Notes under the pieces: generated by a model
What the model was told of the DNA's origin: nothing
Database searches by the model: none
What the model saw: only the letters and a program-made list of their open reading frames with translations
Made by a program: the position numbers and the translations under genes
Shown: piece by piece, positions 1,199 to 39,991 of the stretch
How positions within the stretch are numbered: position 1 is the stretch's first letter
Layout: the number at the start of each line of letters is the position of its first letter
NCBI GenBank assembly: GCA_902793695.1
Contig: CADBEI010000012.1
Span: forward strand, 1 to 54,496
Direction: 5' to 3'
Source of the DNA: an uncultured Pseudomonadota bacterium
GTDB lineage: Bacteria; Pseudomonadota; Alphaproteobacteria; RF32; CAG-239
Length of the DNA stretch: 54,496 bases

Positions 1199-1275
1199 GC
1201 GTGCGTAGCTCAGTTGGCTAGAGCAACTGACTCTTAATCAGTGGGTCCAGGGTTCGAATCCCTGCGCGCGTACCA
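1199..1275 (+). tRNA. tRNA-Lys (anticodon CTT)
   Basis: A full cloverleaf of 77 nt with encoded CCA (1273-1275). The D arm begins at TAGCTCAG, the anticodon stem is CTGA/TCAG around loop CTCTTAA with anticodon CTT, and the T arm is CAGGG-TTCGAAT-CCCTG. The acceptor stem has two G-T pairs, including the terminal one. It is followed by a terminator, then by a GC-rich element and a partial copy of this tRNA's own 3' end at 1436-1454. Confidence 0.95.
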
Positions 1276-1281
1276 GATAAT

Positions 1282-1315
1282 AAAATAAAGCACCACACAA
1301 GTGGTGCTTTATTTT
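1282..1315 (+). terminator. Terminator of tRNA-Lys
   Basis: A 15-bp stem centred on GCACCAC/GTGGTGC with loop ACAA (1297-1300), flanked by AT pairs and followed by T-rich sequence, starting 7 nt after the CCA end. Confidence 0.85.
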
Positions 1316-1355
1316 ATTATCTTCGCGTTGTGGGGTTCGAACACTGGAATAAAGG

Positions 1356-1440
1356 GTTCGACGACGAATGAGAGGCGGGCGAAAGAACGCCGGTGAGCAA
1401 CAGCGAGCGAATGAGAAGAACATAGCGCAGCGAAGTAATC
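1356..1440 (+). repeat. Short GC-rich element downstream of tRNA-Lys, copy 1
   Basis: This stretch shares spaced blocks with the complement of 39582-39662 downstream of tRNA-Trp. The blocks are GTTCGACG (1356-1363), AGGCG-GCG-AAG (1373-1385), CGCCGGT (1388-1394) and AGCG-AGCGAA--AATC (1424-1440). The spacing between the first three blocks is identical at both sites (17 and 15 bp). Both copies point the same way relative to the tRNA. It is richer in GC than its surroundings and shows no credible protein. Similarity is by eye; a third copy was not found here. Confidence 0.6.
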
Positions 1441-1454
1441 CTAAAGCGCGTACC
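1436..1454 (+). repeat. Partial duplicate of the tRNA-Lys 3' end
   Basis: AATCC, a diverged four-base stretch, then GCGCGTACCA repeats the tRNA-Lys 3' end (AATCC at 1258-1262 and GCGCGTACCA at 1266-1275). No anticodon or D arm precedes it, so it is not a tRNA gene. It marks the distal edge of the GC-rich element, as happens with an exact copy at tRNA-Trp. Confidence 0.6.
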
Positions 1455-1459
1455 AATAG

Positions 1460-1487
1460 AAAAACCACCCTTCGGGGTGGTTTTTTG
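1460..1487 (+). terminator. Second terminator of the tRNA-Lys locus
   Basis: AAAACCACCC (1461-1470), tetraloop TTCG, GGGTGGTTTT (1475-1484) with a T run. It can also serve the minus-strand cupin gene, because the stem is flanked by A on one side and T on the other. Confidence 0.85.
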
Positions 1488-1517
1488 GTATAAGACAAGT
1501 TATAATTAGATAACCGT

Positions 1518-38670: not shown

Positions 38671-39528
38671 TAGAGGGCTTACAGTTTGTGAACTGATTAT
38701 TGATTTATTAATAAAGTTTTTGTAACAAGAAAAAAGAGGAAAAAATGAAACACTTTATTAAAAATTCAAAAAATGAGGATATATGCGTTCAAATCTCTGA
38801 ACCTATTATAAATATTTCGCGATCCAAAATGGCAATAATTTGTCATGGGATAACCGGCTATAAAGAACAAGATGTTATTTTACAAACTGTAAAAACGTTA
38901 AATAATTGCGGTTATTATGTTGTTACTTTTGATTGTCGTAATTCCCGCGGTGAAAGCTTTAATAACCACTCATGTGCGACACTTTCATCAATGTATGACG
39001 ATATACAAACTGTAATAAATTGGCTGAAAACAAAAAATTTCTATATAGAACCTTTTTTATTGGCTGGTCATTCTTTAGGTGGTTCGGTTATATTAAATTT
39101 TGCAGAACAAAATCCCAATAAAGTAGAAGGTTTAATATTATTATCCTCCATCTTTGACGGAAATGAACTATCTCAAAATACACAAGAAAACTCTCCGAAA
39201 TTTTTTCAACAGCTTCAGAATGGTGGAATTATTCGCCGCAGAAATAATATAGATTGCTACTTAGACAGCACCTATTTACAAGATTTGCAAAATTATAATT
39301 TTTATGCAAACATTCAAAATTTGAATATGCCAGTATTGATTGTTACCGGAGATCAAGATATTGCCTCGGCACGAGAAGACAATGAGCGCTTTTATAAATG
39401 CTTAAACTGTAAAAAAGAATTTTATATCTTGCACAATTGCTCGCATGTATACGATACGTTGCAAAATCAATCTGATTTAAATGATAAGATTACAAAATTC
39501 ATAACATATTGATTCTAATACTGATTTC
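38671..39528. mobile_element. AT-rich hydrolase unit inserted between tRNA-Trp repeats
   Basis: 858 bp lying exactly between repeat copies C and B. It is visibly AT-richer than all neighbouring genes and codes for one alpha/beta hydrolase. It has no transposase, integrase or terminal inverted repeats. The bounding direct repeats contain the tRNA-Trp 3' end and terminator, as in integration at a tRNA attachment site, with the integrase supplied elsewhere. This is inference; unequal recombination of repeats is an alternative. Confidence 0.5.
38745..39512 (+). CDS. AT-rich alpha/beta hydrolase, probably acquired
   Basis: 255 residues from ATG at 38745 (AAGAGG 7 nt upstream). A serine-hydrolase fold of the Hydrolase_4/lysophospholipase-like type: oxyanion-hole region ICHGITGYKEQ, FDCRNSRGES, nucleophile elbow AGHSLGGS (Ser110), acid in VTGDQDIAS (Asp203 or Asp205) and His234 in NCSHVYD. 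The triad is intact, so it should be an active cytoplasmic esterase or acyl-hydrolase; the substrate is unknown. Codons favour A/T at third positions (AAT, AAA, TTA), unlike the flanking aminoacyl-tRNA synthetase genes. Together with its position between repeats of the tRNA-Trp 3' end this points to horizontal transfer. Confidence 0.85.
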   Translation: MKHFIKNSKNEDICVQISEPIINISRSKMAIICHGITGYKEQDVILQTVKTLNNCGYYVVTFDCRNSRGESFNNHSCATLSSMYDDIQTVINWLKTKNFYIEPFLLAGHSLGGSVILNFAEQNPNKVEGLILLSSIFDGNELSQNTQENSPKFFQQLQNGGIIRRRNNIDCYLDSTYLQDLQNYNFYANIQNLNMPVLIVTGDQDIASAREDNERFYKCLNCKKEFYILHNCSHVYDTLQNQSDLNDKITKFITY

Positions 39529-39585
39529 AAACACCAAAACCGCCCAAACGGGCGGCTTGTCGTTTTTGGCAGGGGCAGAACGATT
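39529..39585 (-). repeat. tRNA-Trp 3'-end/terminator repeat, copy B
   Basis: 57 bp identical to 39699-39755: the last 21 nt of tRNA-Trp including CCA, followed by the complete terminator. There is no anticodon arm, so it is not a gene. It separates the GC-rich element from the hydrolase unit. Confidence 0.95.
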
Positions 39586-39662
39586 GTTTCGCTCCGCTCC
39601 TCCTTCGCTCTCATCGCTTCGCGACCGGCGCGCTTCCGCTCGCCTTTCGTTTGGCGTCGAAC
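39582..39662 (-). repeat. Short GC-rich element downstream of tRNA-Trp, copy 2
   Basis: Read on the minus strand it has GTTCGACG (39662-39655), AGGCGAGCGGAAG (39645-39633), CGCCGGT (39630-39624) and AGCGGAGCGAAACAATC (39598-39582). These blocks match the element at 1356-1440 downstream of tRNA-Lys, with the same spacing for the first three blocks. It ends by running into repeat copy B. It shows no coding capacity beyond Arg/Ser/Glu-rich shadow frames. Confidence 0.6.
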
Positions 39663-39698
39663 GCTCTTCCCGCGTTCTCATCACTCTGCCTCACTCAA

Positions 39699-39755
39699 AA
39701 ACACCAAAACCGCCCAAACGGGCGGCTTGTCGTTTTTGGCAGGGGCAGAACGATT
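39699..39755 (-). repeat. tRNA-Trp 3'-end/terminator repeat, copy A (in the tRNA)
   Basis: The functional copy: the last 19 nt of tRNA-Trp including CCA (39755-39737), then CCGCCC-GTTT-GGGCGG (39725-39710 on the minus strand) with T-rich tail acting as its terminator. The CCA end can also pair with the TTTTGG after the stem. Confidence 0.9.
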
Positions 39756-39812
39756 CGAACGCTCGACACTTGGTTTTGGAGACCAATGCTCTACCAACTG
39801 AGCTATACCCCT
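39737..39812 (-). tRNA. tRNA-Trp (anticodon CCA)
   Basis: 76 nt with encoded CCA. Acceptor AGGGGTA pairs with TGCCCCT (one T-G pair), the D arm has TAGCTCAGTTGGTAGAGC, the anticodon stem TTGGT/ACCAA carries anticodon CCA, and the T loop is TTCGAAT. Discriminator G. Confidence 0.95.
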
Positions 39813-39826
39813 ATGAAACTGAAACG

Positions 39827-39855
39827 CTTATAAAACATTTCTGCGCGCAAATCAA
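39827..39855 (-). promoter_or_regulatory. Promoter of tRNA-Trp
   Basis: Minus strand TTGATT (39850-39855), 17-bp spacer, TATAAG (39827-39832), about 14 nt before the tRNA. Confidence 0.7.
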
Positions 39856-39991
39856 GAACTTTTTTCATAATCCGCACATTTATTATTTTTGTGTATTTTT
39901 GTTACTCATTTTTTTCAATCTGACAAGCTCAAAGAGCAAACCTTTGAAGCTCGCTCTTTAAACACCTGCATACATTCTGCCCGAATAAGCT

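Follow-up and report, generated by a model that had tools for sequence, protein, structure and literature searches.

What is the gene-less, GC-rich element that stands behind two unrelated tRNA genes of an uncultured alphaproteobacterium, and why does each copy end in a stretch of the tRNA that precedes it? We examined this question in a window of 54,496 nucleotides, the whole stretch of DNA analyzed, where a first-pass annotation had pointed out the element behind tRNA-Lys and tRNA-Trp. Both tRNA genes are intact as called by ARAGORN and Rfam; no such unit accompanies Thr(tgt), the remaining tRNA of the window. The block pattern given by the annotation matched exactly at both loci. The two inserts were also more alike than shuffled sequence, with a score of 24.5 against 11.0 ± 3.4 for dinucleotide shuffles, one of 2000 of which reached it. 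When the own genome (G000; 1.55 Mb in 47 contigs) was searched for the pattern, 9 places had three mismatches or fewer, compared with 1 for the reversed control. Copies behind the tRNAs of relatives were found as well, the pattern being present in 24 of the 26 genomes of the genus. The tail copy that closes the Lys element is real, but it lies at 1438–1455 and not at 1436–1454 as first placed.

Two parts of both units had escaped the annotation, namely an inverted copy of the T-arm and the splitting of the T-loop between positions 58 and 59 by the insert (Table 1). Across the family, a terminator stands first behind the tRNA. Next come an inverted, degenerate copy of the T-arm, extending in part to the acceptor, and a short loop of purines such as GAGAA. 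The 5′ half of the T-arm then runs as far as A58, where an insert of about 75 nt intervenes before positions 59–76 with CCA; in many cases the terminator is repeated behind these. The insert splits the direct T-arm copy exactly at 58|59. Units of about 165–190 bp occur in arrays of one to three.

Table 1. Parts of the two tRNA-linked units in the window.
Feature	Position	Strand	Basis
tRNA-Lys(ctt), host tRNA of the Lys unit	1199..1275	+	ARAGORN, RF00005
Lys locus, first terminator (21-bp perfect palindrome), separating the tRNA from the unit	1276..1321	+	sequence
Inverted copy of the tRNA-Lys T-arm (GGGGTTCGAACACTGG)	1332..1347	+	sequence comparison; family-wide statistic
Lys unit, direct copy of T-arm 5′ half, ending at position 58 (GGGTTCGA)	1354..1361	+	
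Lys unit, structured insert, type B, four helices, between T-loop positions 58 and 59	1362..1437	+	
Lys unit, tail copy of tRNA positions 59–76 with CCA, 14/18	1438..1455	+	
Lys locus, second terminator	1459..1489	+	sequence
tRNA-Trp(cca), host tRNA of the Trp unit	39737..39812	-	ARAGORN, RF00005
Trp locus, first terminator, 38 bp, identical to the second behind the unit tail	39699..39736	-	
Inverted copy of the tRNA-Trp T-arm and acceptor	39672..39690	-	
Trp unit, direct copy of T-arm 5′ half (GCGTTCGA)	39657..39664	-	
Trp unit, structured insert, type A	39585..39656	-	
Trp unit, tail copy of tRNA positions 59–76 with CCA, 18/18	39567..39584	-	
Trp locus, second terminator, identical copy of the first	39529..39566	-	

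The T-stem and tail of each unit fit its own tRNA and not other tRNAs. Among 124 tRNA-unit pairs, the T-stem was identical to that of its own tRNA at 5/5 positions in 81, whereas comparisons with other tRNAs gave such identity in 83 of 2417. The tail matched its own tRNA at all 18 positions in 62 of the 124 pairs and another tRNA in 1 of 2417; the Trp tail of the window belongs to these full matches, while the Lys tail does not. The inverted copy has diverged further, with a mean match of 13.1/18 to its own tRNA compared with 10.6 to other tRNAs and 9.7 in direct orientation, and its acceptor part is weakly kept (4.55/7 versus 3.82/7).

The insert itself forms four conserved helices with strong covariation. 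The closing one, P1′, contains a tandem G.A pair that hardly varies; the others are P2, P3 and P4, the last of which is short. The P2 stem reads GGCG/CGCC or GGCA/TGCC, and its loops are mostly GNRA (about 80 of 113 distinct inserts). In an alignment of 118 copies representing these 113 inserts, 91.7% of the cells paired compared with 76.8% after shuffling, and cells changed on both sides numbered 206 versus 54, a value reached in 0 of 500 shuffles. Slid-partner controls paired at 43% or less. Fitting of the covariation alignment to the model makes these counts somewhat too high, but the first MAFFT alignment agrees with them. RNAalifold on the first alignment detected P2 alone, and the full structure was worked out manually and checked with the counts. 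The compensatory changes in the insert helices indicate selection on the fold. Mismatches of the G.T kind outnumbered those of the A.C kind by 29 to 8 in the insert helices and by 35 to 7 in the T-arm hairpin, and this excess identifies the folding strand as the tRNA-coding strand. It is more likely that the folding molecule is RNA rather than single-stranded DNA. G.U pairs are few in the fold (about 2%), and P4 often has 2-bp/GNA loops, which are also typical of stable single-stranded DNA hairpins.

To follow the units beyond the genus, a covariance model (R1) was built from 29 copies. It gave about 14 matches in G000. Of the 101 genomes sampled from the family, 96 had matches, which covered 15 of the 16 genera, and in the order sample the count was 117 of 125 genomes. 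In the class sample outside the family, matches with diverged inserts were found in 3 of 237 genomes, directly behind Glu, Arg and Pro tRNAs wherever the tRNA was visible. A block-pattern scan of genome contigs listed matches that were mostly chance in GC-rich genomes, together with at least four true relatives; the relatives named among the matches listed are the uncultured rumen Alphaproteobacteria RUG560, RUG803, RGIG5100 and SRR8387716 bin 37. Units were found behind 22 tRNA kinds. Of 186 units, 125 start 51–82 bp behind a tRNA, 24 are second copies and 14 run off a contig end; the remainder mostly begin with a tRNA tail displaced by islands. In a census of G000, where an N gap affects Leu(caa), 15 of the 35 tRNA genes that could be tested have a tail-ended unit, and the census of G000 and G002, a related species, added further tail-ended units with other inserts, types C and D.

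The anatomy recalls a class of repeats described in Escherichia coli. A tRNA-linked repeat (TLR) is a unit behind a tRNA or rRNA gene that ends with 18–19 bp of that gene, and E. coli has 22 of them, distributed over ten loci, with one to five in tandem (PMC8144298). The first description of TLRs dates from 1978. No function has been confirmed for the copies in E. coli tRNA operons, and the only TLRs with known functions are rrA/B/F: read-through transcription yields their RNAs, which interact with Hfq and CsrA, and RNase E has been proposed as the enzyme that cuts them at the tail (PMC8144298). We compared the alphaproteobacterial units with the repeats of MG1655 tyrT. At this locus the tail is found at 18/18 three times, the inverted T-arm matches at 15/18 with GA at the junction, and a folded insert stands between GGTTCGA and ATCC. 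It was also downstream of a tyrosine tRNA gene of E. coli that TLRs were discovered. R1 finds all three tyrT repeats with 17.7–19.8 bits (E 5e-5 to 1.5e-4), the match lying mainly on the T-arm flanks, and RF00391, the Rfam family of RtT RNA, matches the same repeats. The 58|59 split recurs at gammaproteobacterial RF00391 loci behind Tyr, Pro, Lys, Ser and Gln tRNAs, where R1 is weak (best E 0.0016). In the reverse direction, the best RF00391 score in the own genome was 36.6 bits, for the Ser(cga) unit, under the gathering score of 45 bits.

The published definition of a TLR agrees with the units in their position directly downstream of a tRNA gene, in the 3′ identity of the tail and in their tandem arrangement, while the RF00391 cut-off is not reached in the own genome; the inverted T-arm, the 58|59 split and the 59–76 tail nevertheless agree with RtT anatomy. 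On these sequence grounds we classify the element as a TLR of a new alphaproteobacterial type, a variant rather than RtT itself. The platform is common to alpha- and gammaproteobacterial units, a statement kept apart from any shared descent of the inserts. Like the E. coli TLRs, the units lie directly behind an RNA gene, take their tail from its 3′ end, occur in tandem and need no protein gene; they differ in belonging to another class, in the fold of the insert, in standing usually behind a terminator of their own, and in occupying about 15 of 35 testable tRNA genes in one genome, and in having insert types A, B, C and D. The 178-bp RtT/tyrT repeat shares with them the inverted T-arm with its GA junction, the GGTTCGA/ATCC split, the 59–76 tail with CCA and a unit of about 170–180 bp. 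However, helix P2 is missing in RtT, and we claim no tpr-like ORF for the alphaproteobacterial units. RrA/RrB/RrF resemble them as units between two terminators (T1 and T2 of the E. coli rrn operons) behind a stable RNA gene with a 3′-end copy, but they follow 5S rRNA, not tRNA, and are without a comparable T-arm copy. In a simple test, E. coli rrnB gave a tail copy of 13/18 and no clear inverted copy of the 5S end, so the T-arm anatomy is confined to tRNA-linked TLRs. The tRNA-matched arms, the fixed 58|59 split and the compensatory base pairs together indicate that TLR architecture, present in 15 of 16 genera of a gut and rumen family, is a widespread and selected structure and not an enterobacterial oddity. 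The units also provide a large comparative set for TLRs, with a testable definition (inverted T-arm, T-loop split, tail 59–76).

The platform and the insert do not change together. At the Trp locus, G000 and G002 have the platform and the downstream flank in common, and one type A insert in the former stands against two of type C in the latter. At the Lys locus, a shared diverged tail (AATCCTAAAGCGCG) frames a type B insert in G000 and a type C insert in G002. Inserts are exchanged on a stable platform between related species. Orthologous tRNA loci vary in unit presence between species of one genus, and copies decay, some of them being truncated.

From the anatomy, fold and strand of the unit we infer a possible course of its transcription, processing and function. 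We favor, as moderately probable, the reading that a TLR is read through, folds on the rebuilt T-arm/acceptor and is cut in the manner of a tRNA into a small RNA. Transcription would pass the tRNA terminator by read-through into the unit, and the inverted copy, the T-arm half and the tail would rebuild an acceptor/T-stem-like end with CCA. Processing of tRNA 3′ ends would then cut at the tail and release a small structured RNA, the amount of which would follow tRNA transcription and which might bind a protein or act as a sponge. Tandem copies would multiply and shrink by recombination between tails and T-arms, and inserts would be exchanged between units, as supported by the exchange of types A/C (Trp) and B/C (Lys) between G000 and G002 on shared platforms. 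Since a terminator lies between the tRNA and the unit, the small RNA may be rare. Decay, truncation and the differences in presence between species are explained at least equally well by an element that is dispensable or selfish. The weakly kept acceptor part of the inverted copy, the scarcity of G.U pairs and the GNA loops of P4 also count against the small-RNA reading, as does the absence of a confirmed function for the TLRs of E. coli tRNA operons.

A broader proposal, which we regard as possible although doubtful, is that TLRs are gene-less elements, without an enzyme of their own, that live on tRNA genes, across at least Alpha- and Gammaproteobacteria. A T-loop-specific RNA or single-stranded DNA insert would pass between units and colonize new tRNA genes, with the host tRNA itself as the source of the rebuilt platform. 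A more conventional form of mobility appears rather unlikely, in which a T-arm-recognizing recombinase moves the insert or the whole unit in trans as a non-autonomous element and the tail is a target duplication. The spread over 22 tRNA kinds, the exchange of inserts on a stable platform and the presence or absence of units between species are consistent with it. So is the finding that the nearest relative of an insert was in the same genome for 12.5 of 112 compared with 2.2 by chance, as are near-identical inserts behind Pro(tgg) and Arg(tct) of genome G057, with arms fitted to each tRNA. Relatedness at the same tRNA, however, was also strong (21.3 versus 7.2 by chance). A moving unit would bring foreign arms, whereas the observed arms fit the host tRNA on both sides, and the insert interrupts the presumed crossover site, which is not the case in att sites. 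Within the set compared, copies from different tRNAs of the same genome were no more than 91% alike. Tyrosine integrases are present, but RVT_1 reverse transcriptase and IS110 are absent from G000 and Y1 occurs there only as an IS200-type fragment. Each enzyme family was found in only 3–9 of 26 genomes, compared with the unit in 24 of 26. The first-pass annotation was right that a gene-less, tail-ended unit follows unrelated tRNAs; its suggestion that an integrase moves it in trans found no support, as the units lie directly behind tRNAs, or are displaced from one by an island, with arms that fit the host. The alternative that it named, copying of a tRNA read-through transcript, is a conceivable origin. 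Integrase mobility is not supported as the general cause of the units, and mobility of the insert by another route is the main rival to the small-RNA reading.

We consider it unlikely that the units are functionless by-products of replication or repair, with hairpin-primed copying from the terminator making the inverted copy and template switching between units inserting the rest. The terminator and the inverted copy do form one continuous, long imperfect palindrome. In about 10 loci the duplication, comprising tail and trailer, stops at the T-tract of the terminator, 31–42 nt behind CCA, and array ends elsewhere are ragged, inside a unit. Nevertheless, the dinucleotide opposite T-loop positions 57–58 was TT or GA in 69 of 99 cases and the TC of the host in only 10, so the inverted copy is not freshly made, and the compensatory changes argue for selection on the fold. 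It is highly improbable, and largely refuted by anatomy and fold, that the units are what is left of the attachment sites of genomic islands that integrated in tRNA genes: some units are displaced by islands, but most stand 51–82 bp behind an intact tRNA without an integrase, islands insert upstream of units, and the folded, conserved insert would be left unexplained.

Several other candidates were considered and rejected. Y1 transposase, reverse transcriptase and IS110 are absent or too rare to be drivers. For an integron attC-like or other single-stranded DNA recombination site no supporting gene was found, and the GNRA loops and the G.U bias favor RNA, though not decisively. No cassette array with cargo between units was found, an apparent large insert in L346 being a run of N. 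A hammerhead or other self-cleaving ribozyme found no Rfam match; at gathering score Rfam reported the tRNAs alone in the window, and the Lys unit had no credible match in permissive mode. Dispersal of the MITE or REP kind, outside one context, was not seen, as nearly all placed copies are linked to a tRNA or displaced from one.

Most units that lack a tRNA begin with the tail of one, the islands having inserted in the tRNA upstream. On contig C1 of G000, a P4-type tyrosine integrase (L172 5732–6910, minus strand) lies on an island between the intact tRNA-Lys(ttt) at C1:7725 (7.7 kb) and its 3′ fragment at C1:15112–15159 (15.1 kb), which still has two units. Contig C24 shows the loss of a unit, at the T-arm repeats that once framed it in a tRNA-Arg fragment; G002 keeps this fragment. 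On contig C18 an IS200-type Y1 transposase fragment (L008, about 1200–1420) lies just behind the tRNA-Asn unit, and about 1.4 kb downstream there is another terminator with an inverted T-arm copy. In G004, three truncated units at Ser(tga), Trp and Pro(cgg) (L141, L261, L398) are joined to the same sequence, GGTTCATCGTCAAAGTTGGGGGCAAGAGTA, which is perhaps the end of an insertion sequence targeting units. In G019 (L249), where tRNA-Trp has no unit, a secE-like gene comes directly after it, and this order is probably the older one; unit-bearing species have other sequence there.

Two ORFs of 120–150 aa, at 39509–39961 (plus strand) of the window and at L172 7109–7498 (minus strand), are merely the antisense of a tRNA and its unit. 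Such antisense ORFs are likely sources of spurious hypothetical proteins, and TLR units account for some false ORFs and repeats behind tRNA genes. Finally, type D is a second, larger class of insert of about 150–200 nt, with a AACAACCTCAAAATGTTGTT hairpin and conserved GGGCGAAG...CGAGTGACCGAAGC. It was observed at L406, L409, L410, L411, L418, L428, L431, L438 and L445, behind Asp, Met, Gly, Gln, Ser(gct) and Phe tRNAs, and the Ser(gct) copies of G000 and G002 keep its layout with different stem sequences.
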